Both the position numbers and the translations under genes were made by a program. From Amycolatopsis sp. FDAARGOS 1241 (GTDB lineage Bacteria > Actinomycetota > Actinomycetes > Mycobacteriales > Pseudonocardiaceae), in the NCBI RefSeq assembly GCF_016889705.1, contig NZ_CP069526.1, positions 2,852,001-2,916,000 on the forward strand: 64,000 bases of DNA, written 5' to 3'. The stretch's first letter is position 1. Every line of letters starts with the position of its first letter. Below the pieces are notes generated by a model that did no database searches, was not told the origin of the DNA, and saw nothing but the letters and a program-made list of their open reading frames with translations. This document shows, in pieces, positions 14,336 through 35,984 of the stretch.

Positions 14336-14381
14336 GTGCCCCCGGTGAGATTCGAACTCACACTGGACGGGTTTTGAATCC
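14336..14381. repeat. attL: 46-bp direct repeat of the tRNA 3' part
   Basis: The sequence starts GTGCCCCCGGTGAGATTCGA and ends TTTTGAATCC, identical to 35910-35955. It covers the tRNA discriminator, the T arm, the variable region and the 3' side of the anticodon arm. After it the sequence departs from the tRNA, so no functional tRNA remains here. Confidence 0.88.
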
Positions 14382-14503
14382 AGCCCTGAAATGGCCCCTG
14401 ACCTGCATAGCGTCTGGTCTCTCGGGCGCGTGGGCCGCCCATAGACCGTGCCCGCCCGCGAAGCAGGCGTAGCGCTCGGGCGCTCCAGCGCGACTGAGCC
14501 TGC

Positions 14504-15514
14504 GTGATGGAGGAGTCCTCTGAGCCAGGGCAGCCCAGTGCCGGAGACGGAAGCGTCGAGTCGGCAGCTAACGTCGGAATGTCGGATCGCGGCTACGCCG
14601 TGACGCTGATTATCCGGGCGTCGAATGATCATCATCTGCCACCGCCGCTTGACCTTCCCGAAGGCATCACAGCGACGGTCGATGGACCGGAGGTCGTACT
14701 GGAGGTGCCGGTGCGCGCACCGGATGCCACAACGGCGCTAGGCGCTGCCGAGGACGCTGCACTGGACTTGATGATGACCCTTGCCTCAACGTTCAGCGGC
14801 TACGAGTTCGTAAGAGACGCACGGCGGCAAGTGCGTCGCACGGACGCGGTCTATCAATCAGACGGACCGCCGCCCCCGTTTGATGTGGTCGGTGGTGGGG
14901 TGACTGAGGCCGGAGCCGAATTGTACGACCCCGATGGCGAGGCCCGTCGGGCCGGAAGGGTGCTGAACATGCACCTCGCCGCGGTCGTAACGCATCCACC
15001 GGCTGAAGACGTTCGCCGGTTCGCGGGGCGGAAAGCCTGGTCGGCGCGGCTGCGTAACGGCCTGCGGCTGTTTCACGCGGCGCAGAACGCAAGGGACGAG
15101 ATTGTCAAGTTCGCCCTCATCGCGGCCGCGCTGGAAGTGCTCGTGGACGCCGACGAGACGTCACTGCTAGAGCGGCTTGGCGCTGAGAAGCGGCAACTCC
15201 TCGGTACGCGGTTGGACGCGTTGCTGGCGGACTTCGATCTCACGAAGCCAGAGCGCGAGCGACTTCGAGACCGGCTGCAGAGCACCCGGGCAAAGGGTAG
15301 TTTTCAGGCAACTCGCGACTATCTCGGCATGCACGATGTTGAGATCGAAGACGGTGATCTCCGGTGGTGGGTGAAGCAACGCGGGCGGTATCTCCACACT
15401 GGGACGTTCGTCGATGAGCCCGAACGCCGGCATCGGCTGGAGCACGCAGTGAGCGCCTGCCTGACCGCAGAACTCGATCGCTATGCACCAGGTGCTTCGC
15501 CCCGCGAGAGTTAG
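14504..15514 (+). CDS. Hypothetical protein, possible C-terminal HEPN-like domain
   Basis: First gene inside attL; 336 aa from the GTG (ATG two codons later, or ATG at 14579 giving MSDRGYAVTLII). Residues about 150-330 are predominantly helical by composition: FALIAAALEVLVDAD, a charged coiled region, and QRGRYLHTG near the end. The R-x4-H arrangement in RGRYLH, after an alpha-helical domain with a conserved-looking ALEVL segment, resembles HEPN proteins of the Apea type, many of which are RNases in defence systems. No signal peptide or membrane segment. The HEPN reading is a motif-level inference; I do not otherwise recognise the protein. Confidence 0.6.
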   Translation: MMEESSEPGQPSAGDGSVESAANVGMSDRGYAVTLIIRASNDHHLPPPLDLPEGITATVDGPEVVLEVPVRAPDATTALGAAEDAALDLMMTLASTFSGYEFVRDARRQVRRTDAVYQSDGPPPPFDVVGGGVTEAGAELYDPDGEARRAGRVLNMHLAAVVTHPPAEDVRRFAGRKAWSARLRNGLRLFHAAQNARDEIVKFALIAAALEVLVDADETSLLERLGAEKRQLLGTRLDALLADFDLTKPERERLRDRLQSTRAKGSFQATRDYLGMHDVEIEDGDLRWWVKQRGRYLHTGTFVDEPERRHRLEHAVSACLTAELDRYAPGASPRES

Positions 15515-16298
15515 GTAGACCTCTGACCTGCGAAACAGTGGATCCACGACTCCTCCGCGGTCTTAACTCCTGCCGTATCTGGCGCGGCCTGCGCTTCACC
15601 AACGGGCCATTGACCGCCACCTGCGACGGCAGGCACGACCCGAAGGTCAACAATGCGACGAGGCTGGCCGCCACGACCACGCGCGCAAGGGGAACCTCAG
15701 TCGACCGATCACCTCTCAGGCCCAACAGTCCGTCACTATGTGCTAACAGCAAGTGGATAGCCGAGTCGACGCCGGTAATGTCAACGAGGCCCTCCACCAG
15801 CCCATCCAGCTGGTGTCAGAGGGATGGTCAGCAAAGTTGCGCGAGCCCTTGGATCTGGTGTTCGATAATCCGGTTGTTGAAGCTGTCCTGGTTGCGCATG
15901 GGCTCGATCAACCGGTCACTCGGACGGTGCGCGGCACCCGCTACTACGCAGCCGGATCGACTTCGACAGGAACGCTTGGCTAATATTTCACGGGGGCGCT
16001 AGTTGGCGACACGAGCGTTCTCGACGTCCCCGTTACATTCACATGAGCAACGCTTCGCGGCGAGGACCGAAGAAGATTGACGAAAATGACGTCAATAGAC
16101 ACTTTGGCGTGCTGAATCCGTACACACGCGAGATCCCGCGATCGCTTTCGTACAGGGTCTGGTAAGCAACCACCGGAACCGCGGCCGCAATGGCAACCAC
16201 TCAGGAGCGATCAGGCCGGCCTCGCCCCACCGGACCCGGCCGCCGGCAGCAGCAGCCCACGGTTGACCGCCCTGCGACAGCAAGCGGACTATCCGAGA
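15515..16298. other. Element region without a supported gene
   Basis: A 784-bp gap. Short open frames exist on both strands: 15753-15983 plus, and a minus frame at about 15700 with the hydrophobic stretch LARVVVAASLVALLTFGSC. None has a ribosome site or a recognisable family, and the frames overlap antisense. I see no clear repeat or terminator here. It may hold decayed cargo. Confidence 0.4.
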
Positions 16299-17903: not shown

Positions 17904-17982
17904 AGCTGGGCGGCGTCGCTATGTCCGGGCAATTGGTGTCTCGTGGTGCCGTCAGCCGGAATGAAGTGGGTACGGTCGACGC

Positions 17983-20285: not shown

Positions 20286-20543
20286 ATGCAGGTTGAGCGT
20301 ACCCGGCTGTACCGGGTTCGAGCGGTCGCGGACGAACTCGACGTCTCGGTGGCCACGATCTACAGGGCGGTGGAGTCGGGCGTGCTGCGTGCGATCCGGC
20401 TGGGCACCGGCAAGGGCGCGGTTCGGATCTGGGGCCACGCGATCGAGGACTACCTGGCGGCGTGCGAGTCGGCCGCGGTGACGCGCGCAGACCACGACCA
20501 GCAGGACCAGTGCGAGGCCGTCTCCGCGGGGGGTGCGGCCTGA
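20286..20543 (+). CDS. Small helix-turn-helix protein, excisionase-like
   Basis: An 85-aa protein with a MerR/AlpA-type DNA-binding fold: YRVRAVADELDVSVATIYRA, followed by ESGVLRAIRLGTGKGAVRIWG. GGAG lies 7 bases before the ATG. It is the first gene of the transfer operon and overlaps the next gene by one base. A second, more typical excisionase sits beside the integrase at 31643, so this one is more likely an operon regulator or relaxosome DNA-binding accessory. Its precise role is unknown. Confidence 0.75.
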   Translation: MQVERTRLYRVRAVADELDVSVATIYRAVESGVLRAIRLGTGKGAVRIWGHAIEDYLAACESAAVTRADHDQQDQCEAVSAGGAA

Positions 20544-22648
20544 TGCGGACGTTCAAGGCGTTTCTGATTTCGGCGGTGCTGATCGCTTCGGGCGTGCTCG
20601 CGAGTGAGTGGCACGTGAAGGTGGCGGCGATCTGGCCGTGGCTGGTGACCGTCGGCGTGGCTGCGGGAGTGCTGGGCTTGGCCGAGTTGATGAAGGGCAA
20701 CGCGGCCCGGGTGGTGACGGTGGCGGCCGGGCTGGTGGGGCTGTCGCTGTGGTTCCTCGGTTGGGTGCCGGCGGAGACGCCGGGCTACGGCGTGTGGCCG
20801 TGGGGCCTGATCCTTGGCAGCCCGGTGTTGCTGGTCGCGGCGTTCCTGGGCGTGCGCGGCCGGGGTGGTTCGCGTGGCCTGATCGGCCGCTGGTCGCGGC
20901 GTTCGCGCCGCAACGGTGGTGTGGCGTCGCGTTGGCAGATCTGGCGGGTCGCGTCGAAGCACGCGATGCGCCGCAAGGCGAAGGTCCTCAAGCCGAGCCT
21001 GCGCAAGGAGATGTGGTGGACCCGCCGGCAGACGCCGGTGCTGCAGTACGCCACGCCGATCGCCCGCGTCGGGCGTCAGCGGATCTGGTCGCCGGTGGAG
21101 GACGTGACGCTGCGCTTCGGTGGTCCGCGTTCGGGCAAGACGGGGGAGCTGGCGTGCCGGATTCTGGACGCGCCGGGAGCGGTGATCGCGACCTCCACGC
21201 GGACGGACCTGATCGACCTCACGTCGAAGCTGCGCGAGCAGCGCAACGGCCCGACGTTCGTGTTCAATCCCTCTGCGCTCGGCAAGTTGGAGTCGACGAT
21301 CACGTTCGACCCGCTGACCGGGTGCGAGAACCCGGTGACGGCCACGCACCGCGCCGCGGACATGCTCCCGGCTGACGGCGGGGACTCCGAGCGGGAGCAC
21401 TGGATCGCTCAGGCCCGTCGTGCGCTGGCCACGCTGATGCACGCCGCGGCTCTCGGTGAGCTGACCATGAGCGATGTAGCCGCGTGGGTCGCGGACCCGG
21501 CGGAGTCGGCCGATGAGGTGCTGCGCCTGCTGCGCCGTTCGCCGGAGGCGTCGTTCGAGGCGGCGGCCCAGCAGTTCCTGACCACGAACGACCGCACCCG
21601 TTCGTCGATCACGACGACGATCATGCCTGCGCTGGCGTGGCTGACCGACCCGAACGCGAAGGCCGCTGCGACCGGTGGGGCGTTCGATGTGGCCGAGCTG
21701 CTCGACTCGCGCGCCACGGTCTACATGCTCGGCGCCGAGGAGGGGCACACGGCGCCGCTGTTGGCCGCGCTGACCTCGCACCTGGCGCGGGAGGCCCGGC
21801 GCATCGCGTCGGAGTCGCTCGGTGGGCGGCTGGACCCGGCGCTGACGCTGGTCCTTGATGAGGCCGCATTGGTGGCTCCCGTGCCGCTGGACAAGTGGAC
21901 CGCGGACATGGGTGGCCGCAACGTGACCATCCACATGGGCGCGCAGTCACGGGCGCAGCTGCGCCAGCGCTGGGGCGACACCGGCTGCGCGGCGATCATG
22001 ACGAACTCGGCGACCGTGCTGATCCTCGCCGGCGCCCGCGACGGCGACGACTTGCAGGCGTACTCGCTGCTCACGGCGGACCGCCACGAGATGGTCGAGT
22101 CCGAGGACGCCGACGGCCACATCACGGGCCGGACGCCTCAGCGGGTGCCGGTGCTCTCGCCCGGGCAGATCGCGCAGCTGCCGGAGCTGCACGCGGTGGT
22201 CGTGCGCCGGGGGATGCCCGCGGCGATCGGGCAGCTGCAAATGGCGTGGAAGCGCGGCGACGTGAAAGCCGTGGAGCGCCGCGAACGCTGGGATGAGTTC
22301 TCCGGACGCTGGGAGCAGCGCCGCGACGAGTGGGCCGTGCGGTTCGCCGCGTTCGTCGACCTGCTCGCCGACAAGGTCGAACCCTGGCTGGCCCGACTCG
22401 AGGACTGGCACGCCGCCCGCAAGGCCGCCAAGGCCAACGTCGCGATCCCCGCCCAGGACCACACCGAGCCGGTGCTCGCGAAGGTTGTCCGGCTCGACGT
22501 CGCCGACTCCGCGCCGGTGGTCGTCCGGCGCGGCGACGCGCCGGAGGAGGAGCCGCTGGCGGTGCTGGACGCCGAGCTGGAGGCCGAGGCCGGCGAGTGG
22601 ACCGAGACCGGCGCAGACGCCACCGACGAGCGTGGTGAGCAGCGATGA
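20543..22648 (+). CDS. VirD4/TraD-like type IV coupling ATPase
   Basis: A 701-aa membrane-anchored ATPase. Hydrophobic helices occupy about 5-25, 33-50, 57-75 and 90-108. The Walker A motif GGPRSGKTGEL is near residue 193 and the Walker B motif LTLVLDEAAL near 435, in the order found in TraG/TraD (VirD4) proteins that dock the relaxase-DNA complex. The C-terminal 120 residues are acidic and likely bind the substrate. The ATG overlaps the preceding stop (TGATG). With the MobF relaxase at the end of the same operon it points to single-strand DNA transfer rather than the double-strand TraB route. Confidence 0.85.
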   Translation: MRTFKAFLISAVLIASGVLASEWHVKVAAIWPWLVTVGVAAGVLGLAELMKGNAARVVTVAAGLVGLSLWFLGWVPAETPGYGVWPWGLILGSPVLLVAAFLGVRGRGGSRGLIGRWSRRSRRNGGVASRWQIWRVASKHAMRRKAKVLKPSLRKEMWWTRRQTPVLQYATPIARVGRQRIWSPVEDVTLRFGGPRSGKTGELACRILDAPGAVIATSTRTDLIDLTSKLREQRNGPTFVFNPSALGKLESTITFDPLTGCENPVTATHRAADMLPADGGDSEREHWIAQARRALATLMHAAALGELTMSDVAAWVADPAESADEVLRLLRRSPEASFEAAAQQFLTTNDRTRSSITTTIMPALAWLTDPNAKAAATGGAFDVAELLDSRATVYMLGAEEGHTAPLLAALTSHLAREARRIASESLGGRLDPALTLVLDEAALVAPVPLDKWTADMGGRNVTIHMGAQSRAQLRQRWGDTGCAAIMTNSATVLILAGARDGDDLQAYSLLTADRHEMVESEDADGHITGRTPQRVPVLSPGQIAQLPELHAVVVRRGMPAAIGQLQMAWKRGDVKAVERRERWDEFSGRWEQRRDEWAVRFAAFVDLLADKVEPWLARLEDWHAARKAAKANVAIPAQDHTEPVLAKVVRLDVADSAPVVVRRGDAPEEEPLAVLDAELEAEAGEWTETGADATDERGEQR

Positions 22649-23028
22649 GCACCTTGACCACGCGACTTCCCGCCCTGCTCCAGACCGGCCACGCCACAAT
22701 CTCGGCCAGCTACGACGCGAGCGAGCCCTACGCGATCGCGTTCGGGTTCGACGCAGTACAGCCCGGCCTGGAGTGGATGGTCAGCCGAGAACTGCTGGCC
22801 GACGCCCTGATCTACGGCACGGCCGGCGAGGGCGACCTGAAGGTCACCGCCCGCGGCGACCTGGTCGTGCTCGGCCTGTCCAGCCCCGACGGCACCGGAA
22901 CTGTGGTGCTGCGCCGCGATGACGTCGACACCCTCGTGGTCGCGACCCACCGGATCGTGCCGCCCGGCCAGGAGTCCGAGCACCTGGACTGGTCCGACAC
23001 TGCGGACTTCCCGGGGGTGAGCCAGTGA
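22645..23028 (+). CDS. SsgA-like (SALP family) cell-division protein
   Basis: The 127-aa product aligns over its length to sporulation-specific cell-division proteins: YDASEPYAIAFGFD, GLEWMVSRELLADALIYGTAGEGDL (given in part), and RIVPPGQESEHLDW at the end. Chromosomal SsgA/SsgB proteins of sporulating actinomycetes position FtsZ and sporulation septa. Here the gene is embedded in a transfer operon, overlapping its neighbours by 4 bases and 1 base. It may couple DNA transfer to septum formation or cell-wall remodelling; this is inference. Confidence 0.75.
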   Translation: MSTLTTRLPALLQTGHATISASYDASEPYAIAFGFDAVQPGLEWMVSRELLADALIYGTAGEGDLKVTARGDLVVLGLSSPDGTGTVVLRRDDVDTLVVATHRIVPPGQESEHLDWSDTADFPGVSQ

Positions 23029-24263
23029 TGAGCACTGCCGCCAACGAGCGGTTGAACGCACGCGGCTACGCGACCGGGCTGGGCGCGCTCAGTGAGACCG
23101 AGGCACGGACGCTGATCACGCGTGTGGCCGCCGGGGACCGGGATGCGTGGGGGCAGCTGTACGAGCACGGACGATCGTCCGTGGCCGCGTACCTGTCGCG
23201 ACGGATGCCGGAACAGGCTGATGTCGACGACGTCGTGCACGACACGTTCGTGCGACTGCCGGAGATGGCGAAGGACTTCATGCCGGACGATGTTGGCGAG
23301 GTCGGCGCCTGGTTGTGTGGCCGGGTCGCTCGGTACACGTTGACCGACTACGGGCACCGGCGGTTCCGGCACCGCGCGGCAGCTGCAGAGACCTTCCTTG
23401 CTTCGCAGATCGCGCCGCCGGAGTCAGTGGAGGAACGGGAGTCCCGGCCGCTGTCGGATCGGATGCTGCACGCGCTGGCGCAGTTGCCGGACGCGCAGCG
23501 CAAGAGCATGCAGTTGCGGTATCTCGACAACCTGTCGAGGGCCGATGCCGCGCGGGAGGCCGGGTGCAGCCCCAACACCGTGGCGGACCAGTGCGTGAAG
23601 GCGCGTAAGCAGCTGCGTGCGCAACTGGCGGATCTGGCGCCGACGGCTCGCTCGTGGCTGGACGCGCTCAGCAAAAAGGAAGCGGTACACGAGGCGTTCG
23701 CCGCGGTGGGCGAGGACGACGTGCCCAAGGTGATGGCTTGGCTGCAGGACAACGGTGTCCAAGTGACGCACTCCTACGTGTGCGGCATCCGTAAAGGCCG
23801 GTACGGAGCGGCCCCGGCTGGGGTCGCCGCCGATGCCGGGCAGCCGACGCGGCCCAAGCCATCGGTGAAGCGCGACCGTGCGCGCTCGGTTGCGCAGCAG
23901 CACCAGGACTCCCACGGTCGCCTGCCGACGAGCGAGCAATTGGCTGAGCTCGCTGGGGTGAGCTCGACCACCGCACAGAAAGCGCTGAGCGACATCCGCG
24001 CCGAGCTTGCTGGGGTCGAGCCGCTGGCTGCGGTTCCCGCACCGCGTGCGGCCGAGCCAGAACGGCCCGTGGACCGGGCAGCGGCGTCCCGGCGGCAGAC
24101 GGACGCGGCGCTGACCGCAGCAGCGTCGGCGGTGCAGCAGCTGCGAGCAGCACCCGAGTTGCGGGCCGACGAGACCGAGCGCGAGCGGTCGCAGCAGGTC
24201 GCCAGTTGGCAGGCCGACGACGCCGCTTCCGCAGACCGGGACGCGCTGGACCTCGCGTCGTGA
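23028..24263 (+). CDS. Sigma-70 (ECF)-like protein with a C-terminal HTH extension
   Basis: A 411-aa protein. Residues about 25-110 resemble sigma region 2 (LITRVAAGDRDAWGQLYEHG, VDDVVHDTFVRLP) and 140-205 region 4 (MLHALAQLPDAQRKSMQLRY, GCSPNTVADQCVKARKQLR). An extra domain at 281-327 (KRDRARSVAQQHQDSHGRLP and following) is shared with the membrane protein at 25167. The ATG at 23028 overlaps the preceding TGA; a GTG three bases earlier is an alternative. No anti-sigma gene is visible. It may be a genuine sigma factor for element genes, or a DNA-binding transfer protein that reuses the fold. Confidence 0.72.
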   Translation: MSTAANERLNARGYATGLGALSETEARTLITRVAAGDRDAWGQLYEHGRSSVAAYLSRRMPEQADVDDVVHDTFVRLPEMAKDFMPDDVGEVGAWLCGRVARYTLTDYGHRRFRHRAAAAETFLASQIAPPESVEERESRPLSDRMLHALAQLPDAQRKSMQLRYLDNLSRADAAREAGCSPNTVADQCVKARKQLRAQLADLAPTARSWLDALSKKEAVHEAFAAVGEDDVPKVMAWLQDNGVQVTHSYVCGIRKGRYGAAPAGVAADAGQPTRPKPSVKRDRARSVAQQHQDSHGRLPTSEQLAELAGVSSTTAQKALSDIRAELAGVEPLAAVPAPRAAEPERPVDRAAASRRQTDAALTAAASAVQQLRAAPELRADETERERSQQVASWQADDAASADRDALDLAS

Positions 24264-24355
24264 TGGCCGACGGTCCGGGCTGGGCGGCCAACGTGCCGTC
24301 CGGCTTCGGCCGGCCTCTGGACTTCATTTCTACGACCTTCGGGGAGAACCAATGA
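24263..24355 (+). CDS. 30-aa coupled small protein
   Basis: The frame MADGPGWAANVPSGFGRPLD, with ten more residues ending FGENQ, starts on an ATG that overlaps the sigma-like stop (TGATG) and stops on a TGA that overlaps the ATG of the next gene (ATGA). The double overlap, matching every other junction in this operon, is the evidence that it is translated. No known function; it could also simply be a coupling leader. Confidence 0.45.
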   Translation: MADGPGWAANVPSGFGRPLDFISTTFGENQ

Positions 24356-25170
24356 ACGAGATCCTGACCTGTGTCCTGTGTGGACGCCGGGGTGTTCGGG
24401 ACTTCGAGCCCGCCGACGCGCTGTCGCGGCGATGCGTCAACCGCGATGCCTGCCAGCGTCGCGTCGACGAGGCGGCGATGGAGCGGCCGTTCCTGCCCGG
24501 CTCCGCCGAGAGCGCTGCCGCAGCGGAGCCGGATGCGGCGCTGGCGGGGATCGCCCGTGAGGTCGAGGGGTTGCGCAAGGCCACCGAGACGATCCCGACG
24601 TTGTTCAAGCAGGTGGAAGACCTGGCCCGGGTGGTGCAGGACCTGGCCGCCAACATCGCGGCCCGCCCGGCCGAGGGCAACGCGGCGATGTCGTGGCTGG
24701 TCATGCCCGACGACCTGCAGCTGACCCGCGAGGTGCTCGACGAGCTGTGCGGGTGGCTGCGGGAGGTGTTCCTGCGCTACGCCGACGCCGCCGGCGCCCT
24801 GCCCGAGTGCTGGTTGTGGCACCCGGACGTGGTCGAGGAGCTGCTGTGGCTGATGCGCGTGTGGATCGCCGCCTATCAGGACGAGGACGCGTCGGCAGGC
24901 CGGGCCGGGGACTGGCACGACCGCTACCGCCCGGGCGTGGTGAAGCGGATCAAGCAGGCCACCGGCAACTGCTCGCTCGAGAACCACCAGGACGGAGGCA
25001 GCCATTACCGCCCCGCGCCGACGGTGCCGCTGACGGACGCAGTTGACCAGGTGGCCGCCTGGTGGGCCACGGCCCGCGAGGTCGCCGCGCCGGAGCCGAC
25101 CGCGGAGCAGCTGTCGGCCGCGCACGTCGCCCAGGCCGAGCAGCGCCGCAACGGGAGTGGTCGCCGATGA
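24352..25170 (+). CDS. DUF4913-like protein with N-terminal zinc-finger-like cysteines
   Basis: A 272-aa protein. The N-terminus carries CVLCGRRG and CVNRDACQRR, four cysteines placed like a small zinc ribbon. A helical linker (GIAREVEGLRKATETIPTLF, continuing to about 100) looks coiled-coil. The C-terminal part, with LCGWLREVFLRYADAAGALP, ECWLWHPDVVEELLWLM and WHDRYRPGVVKRI, matches the DUF4913 family that is common on actinobacterial plasmids and integrative elements. Function unknown; its place between the coupling ATPase and the relaxase suggests a relaxosome or transfer accessory. Confidence 0.72.
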   Translation: MNEILTCVLCGRRGVRDFEPADALSRRCVNRDACQRRVDEAAMERPFLPGSAESAAAAEPDAALAGIAREVEGLRKATETIPTLFKQVEDLARVVQDLAANIAARPAEGNAAMSWLVMPDDLQLTREVLDELCGWLREVFLRYADAAGALPECWLWHPDVVEELLWLMRVWIAAYQDEDASAGRAGDWHDRYRPGVVKRIKQATGNCSLENHQDGGSHYRPAPTVPLTDAVDQVAAWWATAREVAAPEPTAEQLSAAHVAQAEQRRNGSGRR

Positions 25171-26072
25171 GCCGGGCAGGATGGTCAAAGCTGGCGCTGC
25201 TGGTGCCCGGGCTGCTGGTGGCGCTGGGCGCGGCCGCCGCGACGGCGCACGGCCTGTTCGAGGTCGCCTCCGCGTCCGGGGTGCCGGCCGGTATCGCGTG
25301 GATCTACCCGCTGATCACCGACGGGCTGGCGATCGTGGCCTACGCGTCGACGTCGCGGCTCAGCGATGCGGGCAGCCGCTACGCGTGGGCTGTCGTGATC
25401 CTCGCCGCGGGACTATCGGGCGTCGCGCAGGCCGTGTTCCTCGCCGGTGGCTTCACCGCCACACCGACCGACGGGGCGCCAGCGACACCGGCGCCGGAGG
25501 TGCTGCGGTTCGGGGTCGGAGCGTGGCCGGCCATCGCGGCGGCGATCGTGGCGCACCTGTTGTTCATGCTCGCCACCGACCACTCGTCGGATGCGGTGGA
25601 CGCGACCGACACAGCGGCGAGCGGGACGGTCCCGGCGGAAGCCGATCGGCTCGCGGCGTCCACTCCGGTCGTCGCGCCGAAGCCCGTTCAGCCGTCCGGC
25701 GTCCAGTCGCCGTCCGTTCAGCCCGGGCCTGTACAGCCGAGGGAGTTGGACGCGGCTTCGCGGTCCGCGTCGGATGGACGTACAGCCGCGCAGCCCGGGT
25801 CCGTACAGCCGGAGCCATCTCGCGAGCCCGCGGCCGAGGAGCCCAAGCGGGAGCGCCCGGTCTCGACGCCGTCGTCGCCGAAGCGCGACCGTGCGCGGGC
25901 AGCCGCGCGCAGGCACCAGGCCACCCACGGCACCCTCCCGACCGTCGATCACCTCATGGAAATCGCCGACGTCTCCCGAGGCACAGCCGGAACCGCCCTC
26001 CAAGAACTCCGCGAGCAACCCGCACCACTGCAACTCATCACCGAACTCAGCAACACCAAGGCCAACTCATGA
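25167..26072 (+). CDS. DUF2637-like membrane protein (Spd-like) with C-terminal HTH tail
   Basis: A 301-aa protein. Four hydrophobic segments (about 8-28, 42-62, 73-95 and 117-137) include the phrase IYPLITDGLAIVAYA typical of DUF2637 transfer/spread proteins. A Pro/Gln-rich linker with repeated VQP follows (165-215). Residues 239-283 (KRDRARAAARRHQATHGTLP and following) form a helix-turn-helix-like domain closely similar to the tail of the sigma-like protein. The ATG overlaps the previous TGA. The layout suggests a membrane protein that also contacts DNA or a partner on the cytoplasmic side. Confidence 0.72.
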   Translation: MSRAGWSKLALLVPGLLVALGAAAATAHGLFEVASASGVPAGIAWIYPLITDGLAIVAYASTSRLSDAGSRYAWAVVILAAGLSGVAQAVFLAGGFTATPTDGAPATPAPEVLRFGVGAWPAIAAAIVAHLLFMLATDHSSDAVDATDTAASGTVPAEADRLAASTPVVAPKPVQPSGVQSPSVQPGPVQPRELDAASRSASDGRTAAQPGSVQPEPSREPAAEEPKRERPVSTPSSPKRDRARAAARRHQATHGTLPTVDHLMEIADVSRGTAGTALQELREQPAPLQLITELSNTKANS

Positions 26073-26293
26073 TCACCAACTCACCCAACACAGCAGAACC
26101 ACCAAGCAAGCCACCAACTCAGACCAAGACCACCAAGAGCCACTCACCCAGCAACAACTCACCAAACCAAAAACGAGATGCACACCTCGGCATCACGATC
26201 CGATGGGCCGCTGCGCCGTGGCCGGCGCGCGGGAACGCCACTGCCGTTGTTGATCTCCACCGACCGCTAGTTGATCTTGTGAGGGGGTTCTGA
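26069..26293 (+). CDS. 74-aa coupled small protein of unknown function
   Basis: The ATG overlaps the stop of the membrane protein (ATGA) and the TGA overlaps the ATG of the relaxase (TGATG). Residues 1-35 are rich in Thr, Ser, Pro, Asn and Lys and come from a DNA stretch that is unusually rich in A and C. Residues 45-74 (RWAAAPWPARGNATAVVDLH and following) are of normal composition. It is either a real small protein or a translated stretch across a cis-acting DNA site. Confidence 0.4.
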   Translation: MITNSPNTAEPPSKPPTQTKTTKSHSPSNNSPNQKRDAHLGITIRWAAAPWPARGNATAVVDLHRPLVDLVRGF

Positions 26294-29200
26294 TGCTGTC
26301 GATCGGGCGGGGTTACTCGGTCAAGTACCTGACCGATGAGGTCGCGAAGGGCCGGGAGAACTACTACACCGACGCCGTGGCCGAGGGGGAGCCTCCGGGC
26401 CGCTGGTACGGCGCCGGGGCGGAGAAACTGGGCCTGACGGGGCTGGTCAACGAGCAGGACATGCGGGCGGTCTACGAGCAGTTCGTGGACCCGCGGGACG
26501 AGCTGTTCAAGGATCCGACCCGGTGGGCCGAGGCGTCCACTCTGGGCCACACCGGGCGGAACTATCCGACGCCGGACGGGCTGTACGCCGCTGCGTTGGA
26601 CGCGGAGCCGCACGCGACGGCTGAACGGCGCGAGCAGTTGAGGTTGGAGGCGAACAAGAGCGCGCGGCAGAACGTGGCCTTTTTGGACGCCACGTTCAGC
26701 GTCCAGAAGTCCGTCACGGTCTTGCACACCGCGTTCGAGGCGCAGCAGGTGAAGGCTGAACGGACGGCTGAACGCCTCTCGGACGCGCTCACCTCGGCGG
26801 CCGGCTCGGGGGTGGATCCGGCCGAGGTGGCCGAGCTGGCGCGCCAGCGCGACGACGCGCGCGCCGTGGCGGACTCGTGGCGGGCGCACCGCGGCGCGGT
26901 TGAGGACGCGATCTGGGCCGGGAACCGCGCGGCGCTGGACTACCTGTCCGAGCACGCCGGCTACTCGCGGATCGGGCACCACGGCGGTGCCGCCGGGCGG
27001 TTCGTCGACGCCCACGACTTCGTGGTCGCGTCGTTCTTTCAACACGACTCCCGCGACCACGACCCGCAGCTGCACATCCACAACGCAATCCTCAACCGCG
27101 TGCAGGGCTCCGACGGCAAGTGGCGGACGCTGGACTCGAAGGCGATCTACAAGTTCCGCGGTGCCGCCGCCGCGGTCGGCGAGCGCACCACCGAGGAACA
27201 CATCGCGCGCGCCCTGGGCGTGCGCTTCGCCGCCCGGCCGGACGGGAAGGCCCGCGAGGTCGTGGGAATCGATCAGCGGGTGATGGACCTGTTCAGCTCG
27301 CGCCGCCGCGCGATCACCCGCAAGACCGCAAAGCTGGTCGAGGCGTTCGAGACGCGGTTCGGACGCGAGCCGAACTCCCTGGAGCTGGACCGCTTGCAGC
27401 AGCAGGCCACGTTCGCCACCCGCAAAGCCAAGTCCCACGACGGCGAAACCGCCGAGGAGCGGCTGGAACGCTGGGACCGGGAGCTGCGTGCCGAGGTCGC
27501 AGACGGCCTGGCCGGCGTCGCCCGTGACGTGCTCAACCAGCCCCGGGGACCGCGCGAGGCGACGACGTGGTCGCCAGAGGAGGTGCTCAAGACCGCGCTG
27601 GCCGATGTGCAGTCGACCAAAGCCGGATGGACGGCACCGGACCTGACTCGGGCGATCTCCGACGCGTTGCCGGATCAGCTGGGCGACCTTGACGGCGCGC
27701 AAATGACGCGGCTGTTGGACACCCTCACCGCGGAGGGAGTGAAGCTGGCGACCCCGTTGACGACCTCCCGGCCGGGGGTTGCGGTGCTCCCGGACGAGCT
27801 GAAGCTCGCCGACGGGCGCTCTGCTTACGAGGCACCGGCCGGGCAGCTATACGCGACGCCGGATCACGTGCACACCGAACGTGCACTGCTGGCTTCGACG
27901 GCCCGCGGTGGGGCGCCGGCGCTCGACGTGTCCGCAGTGGACGGCTTCGTCTCGGCGCTGGCTGAGCACAACGTCGTCCTCGGCGCCGACCAGGCCGCCG
28001 CCGTGCGCGGTGTCCTCTCCTCCGGTGCGGCCGTCGAGTCGCTGGTCGGCCCGGCCGGCACGGGGAAGTCGTTTGTGGTCGGCGCGGTGGCGAAGGCCTG
28101 GCAAGACCCCGGTCTGTGGGGCGGGCAGGCGCGGAAGGTGGTGGGCCTGGCGGCGAGCCAGGTCGCCACCGACGTGCTCGCCGAGGAGGGACTGACCGCG
28201 CGGAACATCGCACGGTGGCTGAACGCTCAGGCCAAGCTTGCCGAAGGGTCGACACACCCGGAGCACGAGGCGTGGCGGCTGACCGCGGGGGACCTGGTGG
28301 TGGTCGACGAGTCGGCGATGGCCAACACCGCGGACCTGGCGAAGATCCACCGCTACGTCGAGCAGGCCGGGGCGAAGCTGCTGCTGACTGGTGATCACCG
28401 CCAGCTGGCCGCGGTCGGCGCGGGCGGTGGCATGGAGCTGATGGCCGACGCGGGCGCGGCATACGAGCTGACCGAGGTCCGCCGGTTCGCCGCCGACTGG
28501 GAGCGTGCGGCGTCGCTGCGGCTGCGCGACGGTGACGAGTCGGTGCTGTCGGACTACCACAAGCAGGGCCGGATCGTGGACGCCGGAACCCGCGAGCAGG
28601 CCGAGAGGGCCGCGGGCAAGGCGTGGCTGGCCGACACGCTGGCCGGGAAGCACTCGATCCTGATCGTGGACACCAACGAGCAGGCCGCGCAGCTGTGCGC
28701 CGAGCTGCGCAACGAACTCGTGCGCCTGGGCAAGGTGACCGAGACCGGCGTGCCGCTGGGCAAGCAGGGCACCTACGCCGGCGTCGGGGACCTGATCCAG
28801 GCCCGCAAGAACGGCTGGGAACTGGCCGGGTTCGAGGGCAACGGCGAAGTGCCGATCAACCGCAAGCGCTACCGAGTGCTCGACACCCGCGAGGACGGTG
28901 GCCTGGTCGTGGCGCGGGTCCTGGGCCGTGAGGATGGCATGGGGGAGGTGCTGGGGGAGCGGATCACACTGCCGGGCTCCTACGTCGGCGAGCACGTCGC
29001 GCTCGGCTACGCCTCGACCGTCCACAGCGCCCAGGGCCTCACCGTCGACACCAGCCACGCCGTGGTGACCGAGGCGACCGGGCAGGAAGCCCTCTACGTC
29101 GGGCTGACCCGCGGCCGGCACGGCAACACTGCCCACGTCACCACCGTGGCCGTCCCGAAGGACGCACCCGAAGGCGCGGCGCTGGCGGCGGTGCGGCGCA

Positions 29201-30744
29201 AGCCCACTGCGGTGCTCGCCGGGGCATTCGAGGGCAGCGTGCCCCAGAGGTCGGCGTTGCAGGAGGCGACCGAGGCCGCGGCCGAGGCCGAGGCGATCCG
29301 CACCCCGGCCGAGCTGCTCGCCGACGCGACAGAGCTGGCGACAGCGGGCCGCACCGCGCGGTGGCTGGACGATCTGGTGGAGGGTGGGATGCTCACGGAG
29401 AACGAGCGGGAACGGATCGCTGCCGAGGACGGCGCGCCGACGTTGGCGCGGTTGCTGCGTCGGGCGGAGCTGGCCGGCCACGACCCGCGGCAGGTCCTCG
29501 GCGACGCGGTGAGCGCCCGTGATTTCGCCGGGGCTCGTGAGCTGTCGAATGTGATCTACCGGCGGATCACGAGGTCGGTGCGGCTGGAACCGGTCGGTGA
29601 CTCCTACGCCGATTGGCTTCCCAAGGTCGACGACCCGCAGTGGTCGGCCTACCTGCAGTCGCTGGCCGCCACCGCTGACCAGCGGCGTCGGGACCTCGGC
29701 GAGCGGCTGGCCGAGGAACCGCAGCAGTGGGCGCTGGAGGCGTTCGGGCCGGTGCCCGAACAGCCCGAGGCCCGGGACGAGTGGATCCGGCGGGCAGCGG
29801 TGGTGGCCGCGCACCGCGAGCTGACCGGCCACGACGACGCCGCGGCCGCGTTGGGTGCGGCACCGAAGACCGGGCAGGTCCAGGAGTACGCGTCTTGGCG
29901 CGCCGCGTGGCGGGCACTGGGCCGCCCGGAGGAAGGAGCAGACGAGGAAGAGATGTCCGACGGCCGCCTGCTGGTCCGCGTGCGGGCCTGGGAGCGAGAG
30001 AAGGCGTGGGGACCGGAGTTCGTCGGCAACGAACTGGCTGGCACACGCCAGGCCCAGCAGCGGCACAGCCACGAGGCGACGATGCGCCGCGCCGAAGCCG
30101 ACGCGGCGACCGACGAGACCGAGCGCGCCCGGCTACTGCAGGAAGCCACCGAGGCCGAGGCGCTGGCCGAGGTGCTTAGCCAGCGCGCGACCGAGCTGGC
30201 GACTGCGGACGAGGCGCGGGCAATGTGGCTGGCGCACACCGCGGAGACCCGCGCCGCCGCCGACCGGGCCCGAGCACAGCTCAACGCCCGCGCCGTCGAG
30301 CGTGAGCCGGAGCAAAAGGTCACCGCTGACGAGTGGCTCGACGCGCACCGCGAGCACATGGCCGTCGAGGACGCCCACCGAGACGTCACCGGCGAGCACG
30401 ACCTCACCGATGTAGCCGAGCAGCAGGCCGCAGACCTGGCAGCACTGGCTGAAGGTGATGAGGTCGCGCGCGGGGCCACCGAGACCGAGGTGGCAGACGT
30501 GCGCGAGGTCGCGGCCGAAGAACCGACGGTGGTCGACTCGGACGACGTGCGCGTGCCGTCGGCACCCGAGACCGCGGAGACGATCGAGCACGCTCAGCGA
30601 GCGTTGCGGGAGATTCAGGCGCGCGAGGCCGCCGACGCCCAACGGGCTGCCGAGGAAGCACAGGCCGCGGAGATGTACCGCCGCCACACCGCGGACACAG
30701 CCGAACTGGCGGCAGCCGACGACGATGCGGCGGTGGCGTCGTGA
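26293..30744 (+). CDS. MobF-family relaxase-helicase (TraA/TrwC-like)
   Basis: A 1483-aa protein with two linked activities. The relaxase (about 1-430) shows the paired tyrosines in ENYYTDAV near residue 23 and the metal-binding histidine motif DPQLHIHNAILNR near 258. The helicase part (about 570-1000) has Walker A GPAGTGKSF near 586, Walker B VVVDESAM, motif GDHRQLAAVGAGG, and the later motifs STVHSAQGLTVD and YVGLTRGR, a RecD/TraI-type superfamily 1 helicase. The last 450 residues are Ala/Glu-rich coiled-coil. It should nick at oriT, stay covalently bound, and unwind the transferred strand. The ATG overlaps the previous stop; it is the last gene of the operon. Confidence 0.9.
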   Translation: MLSIGRGYSVKYLTDEVAKGRENYYTDAVAEGEPPGRWYGAGAEKLGLTGLVNEQDMRAVYEQFVDPRDELFKDPTRWAEASTLGHTGRNYPTPDGLYAAALDAEPHATAERREQLRLEANKSARQNVAFLDATFSVQKSVTVLHTAFEAQQVKAERTAERLSDALTSAAGSGVDPAEVAELARQRDDARAVADSWRAHRGAVEDAIWAGNRAALDYLSEHAGYSRIGHHGGAAGRFVDAHDFVVASFFQHDSRDHDPQLHIHNAILNRVQGSDGKWRTLDSKAIYKFRGAAAAVGERTTEEHIARALGVRFAARPDGKAREVVGIDQRVMDLFSSRRRAITRKTAKLVEAFETRFGREPNSLELDRLQQQATFATRKAKSHDGETAEERLERWDRELRAEVADGLAGVARDVLNQPRGPREATTWSPEEVLKTALADVQSTKAGWTAPDLTRAISDALPDQLGDLDGAQMTRLLDTLTAEGVKLATPLTTSRPGVAVLPDELKLADGRSAYEAPAGQLYATPDHVHTERALLASTARGGAPALDVSAVDGFVSALAEHNVVLGADQAAAVRGVLSSGAAVESLVGPAGTGKSFVVGAVAKAWQDPGLWGGQARKVVGLAASQVATDVLAEEGLTARNIARWLNAQAKLAEGSTHPEHEAWRLTAGDLVVVDESAMANTADLAKIHRYVEQAGAKLLLTGDHRQLAAVGAGGGMELMADAGAAYELTEVRRFAADWERAASLRLRDGDESVLSDYHKQGRIVDAGTREQAERAAGKAWLADTLAGKHSILIVDTNEQAAQLCAELRNELVRLGKVTETGVPLGKQGTYAGVGDLIQARKNGWELAGFEGNGEVPINRKRYRVLDTREDGGLVVARVLGREDGMGEVLGERITLPGSYVGEHVALGYASTVHSAQGLTVDTSHAVVTEATGQEALYVGLTRGRHGNTAHVTTVAVPKDAPEGAALAAVRRKPTAVLAGAFEGSVPQRSALQEATEAAAEAEAIRTPAELLADATELATAGRTARWLDDLVEGGMLTENERERIAAEDGAPTLARLLRRAELAGHDPRQVLGDAVSARDFAGARELSNVIYRRITRSVRLEPVGDSYADWLPKVDDPQWSAYLQSLAATADQRRRDLGERLAEEPQQWALEAFGPVPEQPEARDEWIRRAAVVAAHRELTGHDDAAAALGAAPKTGQVQEYASWRAAWRALGRPEEGADEEEMSDGRLLVRVRAWEREKAWGPEFVGNELAGTRQAQQRHSHEATMRRAEADAATDETERARLLQEATEAEALAEVLSQRATELATADEARAMWLAHTAETRAAADRARAQLNARAVEREPEQKVTADEWLDAHREHMAVEDAHRDVTGEHDLTDVAEQQAADLAALAEGDEVARGATETEVADVREVAAEEPTVVDSDDVRVPSAPETAETIEHAQRALREIQAREAADAQRAAEEAQAAEMYRRHTADTAELAAADDDAAVAS

Positions 30745-30748: not shown

Positions 30749-31171
30749 TCAGCTGTGCGGCCACGGGGGAGCGGGAACCGCGATCGGAGGCTTCCCGTTG
30801 CCCCACCACGCCCACTCGAACGTCCAGTACACCTGCTCCAGCCAGCCCGGACGTTTCGTCAGCCAGTACGGCACCGGGCGACGACCCAGCAGCTTCGCCG
30901 TCGCCAGCGACTCCTCCACGATCGTTTCCTCGATCGCCGAGCCGAACCGCTGCGTGACCGGGGCGTCCGCCATGAACCACTTTCCAGTGGCCGGCCGAAC
31001 CGTCGCGGTCGCCAACCAGCGGCACGTCTGCACCACGCCGAAGTGCGACCAGGTCTGCTCGCGCTCGTATAGCTGCTCAGCAGCAAGCCACAACCGCGCG
31101 AACTCCACCTTCGACACCCCGCGCACGTTCCCCGCCGGGATCTTGTCGAAATCGCGTCCCGTCAACTCCAT
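30749..31171 (-). CDS. Conserved element-associated hypothetical protein
   Basis: 140 aa from ATG 31171 (MELTGRDFDKIP); longer starts run through a region with no coding character. Visible segments: EQLYEREQTWSHFGVVQTCR, WLATATVRPATGKW, APVTQRFGSAIEETIVEESL, and an aromatic C-terminus (VYWTFEWAWWGNGKPP). I have the impression that similar proteins recur on actinomycete integrative elements, but no function is known to me. It is convergent with the relaxase gene, ending 4 bases beyond its stop. Confidence 0.6.
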   Translation of the reverse strand: MELTGRDFDKIPAGNVRGVSKVEFARLWLAAEQLYEREQTWSHFGVVQTCRWLATATVRPATGKWFMADAPVTQRFGSAIEETIVEESLATAKLLGRRPVPYWLTKRPGWLEQVYWTFEWAWWGNGKPPIAVPAPPWPHS

Positions 31172-31516: not shown

Positions 31517-31642
31517 TCTCGGCGCTGACCGGAATGGGCGAGAGTAGCCCGGTTTCACGCTGAATTCGAATTACCGCGGACGATCACGAATAGGTCCGGG
31601 GATCTTGGCTGACCAAAATCCGACCCGAAAGGTCCTTTTCTT

Positions 31643-31843
31643 ATGCGTACCAACGACGGGCCCGGCGCGATGTTGACACTTGAAGAAGTGTGCGCCGAGC
31701 TGCGAATCAACCGATCAACGTTCAATGGCTGGCGAGCGAAGAAATGCGCCCCGCCGTGCCTGAAATTGCCCAACGGGAAGTTGCGGTTCAGGCGATCCGA
31801 GCTGGACCGCTGGCTGCGCTCGTGCGCGGAGGTGACTGCGTGA
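31643..31843 (+). CDS. Excisionase (MerR/AlpA-type HTH)
   Basis: A 66-aa protein with a helix-turn-helix and wing: LTLEEVCAELRINRSTFNGW, then KLPNGKLRFRRSELDRWL. This is the standard fold of excisionases next to actinomycete integrases. Its TGA overlaps the integrase ATG (TGATG). It should bend DNA at the att site and favour excision. Confidence 0.85.
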   Translation: MRTNDGPGAMLTLEEVCAELRINRSTFNGWRAKKCAPPCLKLPNGKLRFRRSELDRWLRSCAEVTA

Positions 31844-33285
31844 TGGAAACGACGTTCGATGTCCGTATCTGGGACGTGCGTGTGAAGACCGGTCGCCCCC
31901 GCAAAGGCGGGAAGCCTGGACGGAAGTCCTACGTCGTGCGCTGGGTAGTCGCCGGCCACGAGTTCCCGAAGACGTACGCGACTTCAGCGCTGGCGGAGAG
32001 CTTCCGCTCCAAGCTGGTCGTGGCTCAGCGCAACGGAGAGGCGTTCCGCGTCGTCGATGGACTTCCCGTCTCGATGGCACGAGCCGAGAACGATCAGTCG
32101 TGGTTCACATTCGCGCAAGAGTACGCGGACATGAAGTGGTCCCACGCCGCCGCGAAGTCCCGCGCGGGCAACGCTGATGCGCTCGCCACGGCGACGTTGG
32201 CCCTTCTCGCGAGCTCCCGCGGCAAGCCTGAGGACAAGGTGCTGCGCCGGGCGATGACCGGCTGGGCGTACAACACCTACAGACGGGACACGAGCAGGCC
32301 GGCCGACGTGGAGGCCGCGCTGGAGTGGCTCGGCTCGCACACCGTCAAGATGTCACGGCTCGACGACCTGACGATGCTCCGGGGCGTGCTCGACCGCCTC
32401 GCGCTGAAGATGGACGGCACGGCCGCCGCGGCGAAAACCGTCTACCGGAAGCGCGCTGTCGTGTTCAACGCACTGGAGTTCGCGGTCGAGAAGCGGCTGC
32501 TCCTGAAGAACCGGTTGCCCGAGGTGAAGTGGACTGCACCGAAGCGCGTGCGGGCGATCGACACGCGCGTCGTCGTCAACACGCGTCAAGGACCGCAGCT
32601 GCTGGCAGCGGTAGCCGAGCAGAAGGTGATGCGGGTGCCGGCAGGCTCATCCGAGCCGGTGATCGTGACGCGCCGCTCGTCCGGGCCGCGACTGGTTGCA
32701 TGCTTCGGGGCGATGTACTACTCCGCGCTCCGGCCAGAGGAGGCGGTCATGCTTCGAGACGTCGACCTCAAGCTGCCGCGGAAGGGCTGGGGCGAGCTCC
32801 TGCTGTCCGAGACTGCGCCGATCGCTGGCGCGGCATGGACGGACAGCGGCGAGCGCCGCGACCGCCGTCAGCTCAAGCAGCGCGCCAAGGGCGAGGTGCG
32901 ACCCGTGCCGTGCCCGCCGCCGCTGACCGCGATGCTGCACCGCCACGTCGAGCAGTACGGCGTCGCCGACGACGGCCGCCTGTTCCGGAGCCTCGACGGC
33001 GGTGACGTCGCAGAGTCGACGCTCGCACGGGTCTGGGACAAGGCCCGCCAAGCAGCCCTGTCCGAGGAGGAGTACCGATCGCCGCTGGCGCGCCGGCCGT
33101 ACGACCTGCGGCACGCGTGCGTGTCGACTTGGCTGGCGGCCGGCGTACAGTCCGCCCAGGTAGCTGCCTGGGCGGGGCACTCAGTGGCTGTGCTGCACGA
33201 GGTGTACGCGAAGGTGCTGGCAGGGCTGGAAGAGGTATCGCTGGCGAAGATCGCCACAATCCTCGGTCTGGTCGAGGAAGAGTAG
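31843..33285 (+). CDS. Tyrosine-type site-specific integrase
   Basis: A 480-aa recombinase. Residues about 1-60 form an arm-binding start (GRPRKGGKPGRKSYVVRW), the core-binding helical domain covers about 85-250, and the catalytic domain follows. Catalytic residues: Arg in SALRPEEAVML (about 296), YDLRHACVSTW (about 419, with Tyr in place of the first His of HxxR, as is common in actinomycete integrases), GHSV (about 446) and the nucleophile Tyr in HEVYAKVL (about 455). It should recombine the 46-bp core at the tRNA gene. It is coupled to the excisionase. Confidence 0.92.
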   Translation: METTFDVRIWDVRVKTGRPRKGGKPGRKSYVVRWVVAGHEFPKTYATSALAESFRSKLVVAQRNGEAFRVVDGLPVSMARAENDQSWFTFAQEYADMKWSHAAAKSRAGNADALATATLALLASSRGKPEDKVLRRAMTGWAYNTYRRDTSRPADVEAALEWLGSHTVKMSRLDDLTMLRGVLDRLALKMDGTAAAAKTVYRKRAVVFNALEFAVEKRLLLKNRLPEVKWTAPKRVRAIDTRVVVNTRQGPQLLAAVAEQKVMRVPAGSSEPVIVTRRSSGPRLVACFGAMYYSALRPEEAVMLRDVDLKLPRKGWGELLLSETAPIAGAAWTDSGERRDRRQLKQRAKGEVRPVPCPPPLTAMLHRHVEQYGVADDGRLFRSLDGGDVAESTLARVWDKARQAALSEEEYRSPLARRPYDLRHACVSTWLAAGVQSAQVAAWAGHSVAVLHEVYAKVLAGLEEVSLAKIATILGLVEEE

Positions 33286-33310
33286 GCCCCGGCCCCCTCC
33301 GCCGCGACGA

Positions 33311-33421: not shown

Positions 33422-33469
33422 CTGAGTCATCGCCGGTCAACCCCGAGGTCGTCCAGCAGTTGCTAGCGG

Positions 33470-35492: not shown

Positions 35493-35780
35493 CCGGCCAT
35501 AATCAGTCCGGACCCGCCAGTCTTACCACGCGACATTTTTACATCAGTGGGTAGGTGAACGTACGACGTATCGGTTGCACTCCCGCTCTTCGGTCTCGCA
35601 GCAACGACGGTGGCGAGCACAGCTGAGCCGATAGTGATGACCAGCATGGCTCTGTCGCCGTCGAGTTGCCAGCAGGCGACCGCAGCGATACCGACGGTTA
35701 GGTCTCCCAGGGCGCCGCAAGCGCCTTCTAGTCGCGGCCGGGCGTGGACTGCGCTTCCTTGAGCGCACGGGCTGAGGAAG

Positions 35781-35893
35781 ATGTGGACCGTGAATAGACC
35801 GCGCGTAGCCGTACTTTGCCGGTCGCCGTCGCGCGCCATCGGTTGACACAAGATCGACCCCTGACCGGTTTTCGCCTGGTCAGGGGCAGATTT
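35781..35893. repeat. Copy 2 of the duplicated post-integrase segment
   Basis: Begins ATGTGGACCGTGAATAGACC and ends with the hairpin and GCAGATTT, closely similar to 33311-33421. It ends 17 bases before attR. The preceding GCTGAGGAAG resembles the GTCGAGGAAG end of the integrase gene, suggesting a remnant of a related integrase tail. Confidence 0.78.
35858..35886. terminator. Hairpin in repeat copy 2
   Basis: CCCCTGACC pairs with GGTCAGGGG across an 11-base loop, the counterpart of 33386-33414. No gene ends directly before it now. Confidence 0.45.
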
Positions 35894-35907
35894 GTGCTGG
35901 TGGGCCG

Positions 35908-35984
35908 TGGTGCCCCCGGTGAGATTCGAACTCACACTGGACGGGTTTTGAATCCGTTGCCTCTGCCAGTTGGGCTACGGGGGC
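35908..35984 (-). tRNA. tRNA, anticodon CAA (Leu), integration target
   Basis: Read on the minus strand: acceptor GCCCCCG pairs with CGGGGGC, discriminator A and encoded CCA at the 3' end; D arm GCCC...GGC; anticodon loop TTCAAAA giving CAA, a leucine codon reader; T arm GTGAG-TTCGAAT-CTCAC. The variable region is only about five bases (CCAGT), unlike the long arm of ordinary leucine tRNAs. The closing pair of the anticodon stem (A-C) is a mismatch. The identity rests on the anticodon; charging by LeuRS is not shown. Confidence 0.8.
35910..35955. repeat. attR: 46-bp direct repeat within the tRNA gene
   Basis: Identical to 14336-14381. It covers the 3' end of the tRNA from one base of the CCA through the anticodon loop, so integration leaves the tRNA intact at this end. 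Confidence 0.88.

Follow-up and report, generated by a model that had tools for sequence, protein, structure and literature searches.

A tRNA-integrated Amycolatopsis element carries a conserved MobF-VirD4 module with a candidate origin of transfer and no recognizable mating channel

The window analyzed here is a 64,000-nucleotide stretch of the genome of Amycolatopsis sp. FDAARGOS 1241 (contig NZ_CP069526.1, positions 2,852,001 to 2,916,000; coordinates below count from its first letter). It contains an integrated element of ~21.6 kb that encodes a MobF relaxase-helicase, a VirD4-type coupling ATPase, a DUF4913-like protein and a DUF2637 membrane protein, and that carries upstream of mobF a 20-bp site resembling part of an origin of transfer (oriT). 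These components form a conserved unit with a strong candidate oriT: the sequence shows a site-specific insertion, a gene set kept as a unit, conserved catalytic motifs and a conserved cis-acting site, and no linked VirB4 gene was found. We propose, with a confidence just short of even, that this is a mobile element inserted in a tRNA gene and moved by relaxase-driven transfer, in which a compact module would use VirD4 and the DUF2637 protein as its channel. The initial annotation of the window, made from the sequence alone, had offered either an element that borrows a channel or a minimal single-strand transfer system; both alternatives survive, and the sequence is unable to decide between them. 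Four features described below go beyond that annotation: an SsgA-like gene, a DUF4913-like gene present in every core locus, the candidate oriT, and two sister copies of the module in the same chromosome.

Conservation of the transfer module

The transfer genes lie on the plus strand as a tightly packed operon in the order helix-turn-helix (HTH) protein, VirD4-type ATPase, SsgA-like protein, sigma-like protein, DUF4913-like protein and DUF2637 protein, followed after a 220-bp gap by the MobF relaxase. The VirD4/TraG-type ATPase (20543..22648; PF02534, 1.1e-21; PF12696, 3e-16; PF10412) has the RecA-like ATPase domain, Walker A and B motifs, TraG/TraD C-terminal signature and membrane N-terminus of a type IV coupling protein (T4CP), with four hydrophobic segments placed by hydropathy between residues 3 and 104. 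The 1,483-aa MobF (TrwC/TraI-type) relaxase-helicase (26293..30744) matches TrwC (PF08751, 1.3e-48), AAA_30 (2e-47) and the NCBIfam MobF model above its cut-off. Both identifications, already made in the initial annotation, are thus borne out by Pfam and NCBIfam. The DUF4913-like protein (24352..25170) is encoded downstream of VirD4, here as in all 36 core loci described below. PF16259 is matched at E≤0.1 by 5 of 23 members of its family (best E 0.0012), and the protein of the window is not among these; its core is modeled as all-helical (mean pLDDT, the per-residue model confidence, 85.7), and a fold search of the PDB with this model returned no match at E≤0.001. The DUF2637 protein (25167..26072), described as DUF2637-like from the start, matches PF10935 marginally (23.6 bits versus a cut-off of 22.8); its close homologues carry PF10935, and it proves to be a conserved membrane partner of the module. 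Its model predicts four membrane helices (residues 4-146) and C-terminal HTH helices (238-283) with pLDDT ~95, the mean over the whole protein being a moderate 67.7. Such a predicted combination of membrane and DNA-binding parts is what is expected of a Spd-like protein; none of the 60 listed homologues is a named Spd protein, all being called DUF2637 or hypothetical or left blank.

We searched 297 genomes of the host's family with VirD4 at a threshold of 1e-30. Matches were obtained in 95 genomes, 50 of which contain members of the close clade, defined as VirD4 above 380 bits or, for G015, entered as a module genome on two fragments, as contig-end pieces. At least 90 copies above 380 bits were listed, only three candidates per genome being scored. 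A separate scan of genome contigs with VirD4 yielded two loci. Forty loci were hand-picked among the listed matches, mostly strong ones (other strong ones being skipped) and seven divergent (L083-L089); the other 33 and the three copies of the host genome form a core set of 36, and most loci were read over short stretches (13.9-26 kb each).

VirD4, the DUF4913-like protein and MobF are each encoded in 36 of the 36 core loci and the DUF2637 protein in 35, which is the conserved set revealed by the comparison that the initial annotation had suggested. The 35 comprise 31 loci identified by clustering, L058 by a hidden Markov model (HMM), L070 and L080 by Pfam, and L074, whose protein clusters with that of L070. 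In L070 and L080 the DUF2637 protein is a different PF10935 protein encoded just upstream of virD4 (52 and 38.4 bits). This upstream rather than downstream position is shared by L074 and by two further copies from G237 (L096 and L097), in which the HMM of the window-type protein found no match and PF10935 lies upstream of virD4 (33.1 and 46.3 bits). Residues H251, H261 and H263 and tyrosines Y12, Y24 and Y25 of MobF are conserved at 100% over the 36 loci. The helicase motifs are conserved too, and the relaxase-helicase is apparently intact. The Walker motifs of VirD4 are also kept, Walker A at no more than 97%, some rows being truncated.

The VirD4 proteins of the core loci fall into one clade (34 rows, support 100/99) in a tree built without three truncated rows (L057, L068 and L086) and in which several plasmid and type IV secretion system (T4SS) rows are long branches; the module therefore represents an established lineage rather than repeated accidents. 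Distance correlations between module proteins range from 0.37 to 0.87 over pairs, and from 0.52 to 0.72 among VirD4, DUF4913-like, DUF2637 and MobF, with no null to set them against. The host genome itself carries three relaxase and three VirD4 copies, the two sister relaxases being 80-81% identical to that of the window, and the 50 module genomes are scattered patchily over 15 genera.

A candidate oriT upstream of mobF

Alignment and pattern scans revealed a conserved 20-bp site, CACACCNNNGCATCACGATC (26181..26200), which is a candidate oriT core (nic region) and is found exactly or as a close variant in all 36 core loci. On its 5′ side, as read on the minus strand, lies a hairpin (26208..26232), and two GTTGATCT-type repeats recognized in the alignment (26246..26279, plus strand) lie between the hairpin and the start of mobF. 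Exact copies of the site number 79 in 43 of the 297 family genomes, compared with 0 for the reversed pattern used as a control. For 71 of them, a listed module VirD4 gene lies 0.7-6.3 kb upstream in the same orientation, and of the remaining eight, seven are in module copies or contig-end fragments, which brings to 78 of 79 the copies within modules or pieces thereof at contig ends. An order-wide sample of 298 genomes, which overlaps the family sample, has the site in 10: nine from the host's family, and G347. No exact downstream site accompanies 19 of the 90 listed VirD4 copies; eight of these are core loci (including L059, L060, L063, L068, L071 and L080), and a variant site is present in those of the eight for which the site was listed.

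Pairing within the hairpin is kept while its sequence drifts (mean z of −1.11, 23 of 36 loci below −1; −0.29 to +0.56 in five control windows). Together, the site and the hairpin look like an oriT. Two likenesses serve as leads only: a hairpin 5′ of the site on the minus strand is the layout of R388, and the minus strand reads GGTGTG, the hexamer around the nic site of F. We consider it possible, at about one chance in four, that the 20-mer and the hairpin are instead an operator or attenuator of mobF. Every one of the 36 core loci has them ahead of mobF, a position that would suit such a function, nicking at the site being itself a candidate role. Against it, the core is non-palindromic and near-invariant across diverged relaxases and the hairpin excess is confined to one side; furthermore, a small open reading frame (ORF) separates the site from mobF in L096 and L097, an arrangement less expected of an operator close to the promoter. 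The possibility that the 20-mer is coding was dropped on an alignment judged by eye.

The only exact copy away from a module (L099, in G276) lies beside a bare 43-bit MobF match and is a candidate decayed copy or oriT-only hitchhiker.

Integration into a tRNA-Leu gene

The element is bounded by two perfect 46-bp direct repeats (100% identical), the left one (attL) at 14336..14381 and the right one (attR) at 35910..35955, within a tRNA-Leu(CAA) gene of the minus strand (35908-35984). An empty site is kept in one (L111) of the four relatives in which the right flank was compared (L108-L111); these were reached through the right flank, the search with the left flank giving poor matches. In L111, the stretches matching window positions 14256-14381 and 35910-36824 adjoin and overlap, with only one 46-bp copy (at 17145) where the flanks come together; the insertion is therefore real and spans ~21.6 kb of a 9.80-Mb genome in two contigs. 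The direct repeats and tRNA integration first noted in the initial annotation are thereby upheld. The excisionase-like HTH_17 protein (31643..31843, plus strand) is well recognized (PF12728, 5e-11), and the adjoining integrase (31843..33285, plus strand) matches PF00589 weakly, under the cut-off (0.0074), its residues being tyrosine-recombinase-like on reading of the sequence. An integrase (albeit a weak match), a relaxase and a T4CP thus occur together in the element.

A stretch of ~115 bp located right after the integrase gene (33311-33424) recurs just before the tRNA gene (35781-35896) in two blocks of 91% and 87% identity. Between these repeats sits a 2.4-kb segment that encodes a GNAT acetyltransferase and one uncharacterized product and may be a tandemly accreted satellite unit. 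At the same tRNA, the relative L108 carries the GNAT segment together with a related integrase end.

Search for channel genes

Among the tested products of the window (short or uncalled ORFs fell outside the scan), we found no match to the VirB4, VirB6 and FtsK/TraB families, in agreement with the earlier claim that no channel is recognizable. Two findings that the initial annotation had named as fatal to its view were looked for. No VirB4 match was obtained among the genes called in the 13.9-26 kb read of each of the 36 copies, and a recent loss of channel genes was accordingly rejected. No FtsK/TraB domain was detected in the tested operon products, and the idea of a TraB-like one among them was rejected as well.

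Because the VirB4 ATPase is almost overlooked by Pfam alone, we used as probes the ATPase itself and SCO6880, one half of the split actinobacterial VirB4. Both proteins occur, with VirD4 and a DUF4913-type protein, in the T4SS loci L088 and L089 (in L088, SCO6880 matches the N-terminal part of the VirB4 profile). In the stretches read of the 36 core loci, neither probe found a match among the called genes. One weak match (7.7e-05) linked a non-VirB4 protein of L088 to a gene of L078, and a scan of 118 accessory proteins (of 506 genes in 33 loci) revealed no channel family among the best 25 of 142 families. In L089, the T4SS genes are preceded by a gene for a 567-aa protein with seven hydrophobic segments and no family match.

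At the genome scale, SCO6880 exceeds its cut-off in 80 of the 297 family genomes, 77 of which have it in full-length form; the partial matches of G001, G242 and G263 were left out of the positives, and G263 is a module genome. Full-length SCO6880 is found in 19 of the 50 module genomes (20 if G263 is included) and was not found in 31. In 25 of these 31, the host genome among them, the VirB4-ATPase probe gave no match at 1e-6 (controls positive, 3/3). The closest SCO6880 gene on the same contig as a module is 828 kb away, among the matches listed. The host genome has no PF19044 match and one SCO6880 match under the cut-off (E 5.2e-5).

VirB4-like open frames of ~700-890 aa occur in G260 (C1:1564412-1566040) and G263 (C35:94602-96368), and their product seems to be the C-terminal part of SCO6880 fused to the ATPase. 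Many genomes of the family have similar SCO6880 matches listed, with scores close to or below the cut-off. The chromosome of the host also encodes FtsK/SpoIIIE-domain proteins of 517 and 785 aa (C1:1034675 and C1:1139700; L018 and L019), possible TraB-type translocases of resident actinomycete integrative and conjugative elements (AICEs).

Plasmid relatives of the module

We also examined nine plasmid records of 30-50 kb (L090-L092 and L102-L107), taken from the top matches for being under 50 kb; L093, read for 39.8 of its 59.8 kb, stands outside these nine. All nine carry MobF and the VirD4/DUF4913-like pair (MobF of L091 partly by record annotation), and no SCO6880 or VirB4-ATPase match was found in eight of them. 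PLSDB types six of the nine as ‘non-mobilizable’ despite their MobF, VirD4 and DUF4913-like genes and therefore undercounts this group. No strong hydrophobic segment was found in the VirD4 of the four plasmids tested (L090, L103, L105 and L106), and in the eight plasmids measured the gene before virD4 encodes a protein that has between two and four of them. This protein carries PF10935 in L091 and, weakly, in L106, and is annotated as DUF2637 in L103 and L107. The pattern of hydrophobic segments hints that a DUF2637-type protein can act as the membrane anchor of the ATPase.

Two possible mechanisms: a minimal translocon or a borrowed channel

Of two nearly equal readings, we slightly prefer a minimal translocon to a helper-dependent element. 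The module may be, although we would not put it at even odds, a self-sufficient machine for single-strand conjugation between actinomycete hyphae, comprising oriT, MobF, VirD4, a DUF4913-like adaptor and a DUF2637 pore partner and dispensing with a VirB4/VirB6 channel. The integrase and excisionase would excise a circle, MobF would nick the minus strand at the candidate site, beside the hairpin; the DUF4913-like protein would dock the relaxosome on VirD4; and VirD4 hexamers would pump the strand. The adaptor role is suggested by the position of the DUF4913-like gene, since it lies near virD4 in both channel-less and T4SS loci. By analogy with TraB and SpdB2, the presumed pore formers of Streptomyces, we propose that VirD4 and an oligomeric DUF2637 protein would form the membrane pore. 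According to a recent review, TraB, accompanied by membrane Spd proteins, can be seen as a coupling protein acting in the absence of any other known T4SS subunit (PMC12857230), and SpdB2 is described as a DNA-binding membrane protein that forms oligomers and interacts with TraB (PMC4170104). Transfer would occur where hyphae touch or at cross-walls, places at which DNA has to cross only membranes that lie close together, and the SsgA-like protein of Amycolatopsis-type copies would tie it to septum sites. Relatives of this protein are septum-site regulators; its gene fits septal or hyphal-contact transfer, yet only 10 of the 36 core loci have it.

Several observations speak against self-sufficiency. 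No experiment known to us demonstrates cell-to-cell DNA transfer by a VirD4-type ATPase in the absence of a VirB channel, and the DUF2637 protein as pore former is a guess by analogy. L071 has a similar-looking protein that Pfam does not recognize and is the sole core locus lacking a proven DUF2637 protein; the protein beside VirD4 in plasmids L090, L092 and L104 has no Pfam match either. Five divergent VirD4/DUF4913-like loci (L084 and L086-L089) have no MobF gene within the stretch read. Weaker VirB4-ATPase matches occur in 6 of the 31 module genomes without SCO6880, and any difference in the frequency of SCO6880 is toward more of it in genomes with the module (19/50 versus 58/247, odds ratio 2.0, p 0.05, uncorrected for kinship), a mildly positive co-occurrence that, uncorrected as it is, tells neither way. 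A DUF4913-type protein is encoded beside VirD4 in the T4SS locus L089 and one gene away from it in L088, and one Streptomyces plasmid (L105, NZ_CP023993.1) carries the module together with a separate locus for SCO6880, VirB4, an SCO6881-like protein and an NlpC/P60 hydrolase. Because of L105 and of this pairing in L088 and L089, the module is compatible with a channel.

These last observations count in favor of a helper-dependent integrative and mobilizable element (IME), a reading we hold with slightly less confidence. Its own relaxosome and coupling protein would plug into the T4SS, of the SCO6880/VirB4 type, of a visiting plasmid or integrative and conjugative element (ICE), and the DUF2637 protein would assist the relaxosome or serve as an anchor. 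Channel-less elements that bring their own VirD4 have been predicted, namely two putative Streptococcus IMEs with MobC named in a 2017 review (PMC5704250), and the frequency of SCO6880 in the family and in the module genomes given above would provide potential helpers. On the other hand, 25 of the 50 module genomes have no match to full-length SCO6880 or the VirB4 ATPase, although a helper would be needed only at transfer; the lineage has radiated and is often multicopy; and the canonical IMEs of the 2017 review include none with MobF (PMC5704250).

It is improbable that the module serves for spreading within one mycelium by septum crossing, or for copy maintenance, rather than for transfer between strains, with VirD4 and the DUF2637 protein placed at cross-walls under the guidance of the SsgA-like protein. 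The SsgA-like gene does lie right after virD4 in 10 of 36 loci, and Spd proteins are stated to be required for intramycelial spreading (PMC12857230, PMC4170104). However, the gene was not found in the other 26 loci, the presence of MobF with an oriT-like site implies that one particular strand is nicked, and patchiness over 15 genera suggests transfer between strains. That the element is a dead or decaying deletion derivative of a full T4SS ICE is very unlikely: it is small and none of its tested products is VirB4-like, but none of the 36 compared copies has a VirB4 match, their VirD4 proteins form a single clade, the reading frames and catalytic residues are intact and the cis site is conserved.

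Relation to known systems

The minimal translocon would resemble AICEs and Streptomyces plasmids that use TraB and Spd proteins (pSAM2, pSVH1 and pIJ101) in that an actinomycete element relies on one translocase and a membrane protein with a (here predicted) DNA-binding part, without a T4SS. It differs from them by a translocase of the VirD4/TraG rather than the FtsK/TraB type (no PF01580 match among the tested window products) and by MobF and an oriT-like site, which imply single-strand transfer. With T4SS-type actinobacterial ICEs (Ghinet et al. 2011; L088 and L089) it shares a VirD4 gene adjoining, or one gene away from, that of a DUF4913-type protein, whereas no SCO6880 or VirB4 ATPase gene was found linked to the module. 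Like IMEs with their own coupling protein, the element has an integrase, a relaxase and VirD4, and no mating channel genes were found; in contrast, its relaxase is MobF and not the MobC named in the review (PMC5704250), a DUF2637 membrane protein accompanies 35 of 36 copies, and 31 of 50 module genomes have no full-length SCO6880. Also close are the plasmid pA387 from Amycolatopsis benzoatilytica and some small plasmids of Streptomyces (L091, L103, L106 and L107), which combine VirD4, a DUF4913-like protein and MobF in 30-46 kb with no SCO6880/VirB4 match; they differ by a VirD4 only ~31-34% identical to that of the window, by mobF being opposed to virD4 and by a membrane protein gene upstream of virD4.

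Ghinet et al. (2011) sought sets of MobF, VirD4 and VirB4 and reported 17 in 275 genomes (PMC3218068); their criteria require VirB4 and therefore exclude the present module. Guglielmini et al. (2011) reported that actinobacteria have many relaxases but few coupling proteins or T4SS, and described their count of conjugative systems as ‘surprisingly low’ (PMC3158045). MOBF is rare in Gram-positives according to a 2025 review (PMC12857230), MOBF is the commonest relaxase of plasmids in a Mycolicibacterium survey (PMC8190616), and elements without a T4SS were classed as IMEs in a Streptomyces survey (PMC9513070). Our search of open-licence literature, subscription papers lying outside it, found no description of a DUF2637-VirD4-DUF4913-MobF module, nor of a minimal translocon or a helper-dependent MobF element with its own VirD4, nothing on DUF4913 and almost nothing on DUF2637.

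The module is a recurrent answer to the actinobacterial gap of many relaxases and few channels, and makes that puzzle testable. If self-sufficient, it would mean that a VirD4-type ATPase can work without a VirB channel; such a minimal machine would be the single-strand counterpart of TraB/Spd transfer and would explain many orphan actinobacterial MobF relaxases. If helper-dependent, it would represent a large family of MobF mobilizable elements. Under either reading, the 20-bp site serves as a marker.

Other genes of the operon and element

The first gene of the operon encodes a small HTH_17 protein (20286..20543, plus strand; PF12728, 1.7e-07, gene call). The SsgA-like protein (22645..23028, plus strand; PF04686, 5.7e-16) is followed by an extracytoplasmic function (ECF)-sigma-like protein with a C-terminal HTH (23028..24263, plus strand; PF08281, 6.9e-12), whose cluster occurs in fewer than 3 of 43 compared loci. 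The C-terminal HTH segment of this sigma-like protein resembles that of the DUF2637 protein (25167-26072), as seen in a mutual BLAST match and a 77-bp DNA repeat. No Pfam match to a RepSA, RepAM or Prim-Pol replication initiator was found among the tested products, RepSA being named in a paper without a Pfam model. Downstream of mobF, a small convergent ORF (30749..31171, minus strand) without a family match is shared by 22 of the 36 core loci. Cargo inside the element includes a gene (16299-17903) whose product has a pro-kumamolisin activation domain, as in secreted proteases of the sedolisin type.

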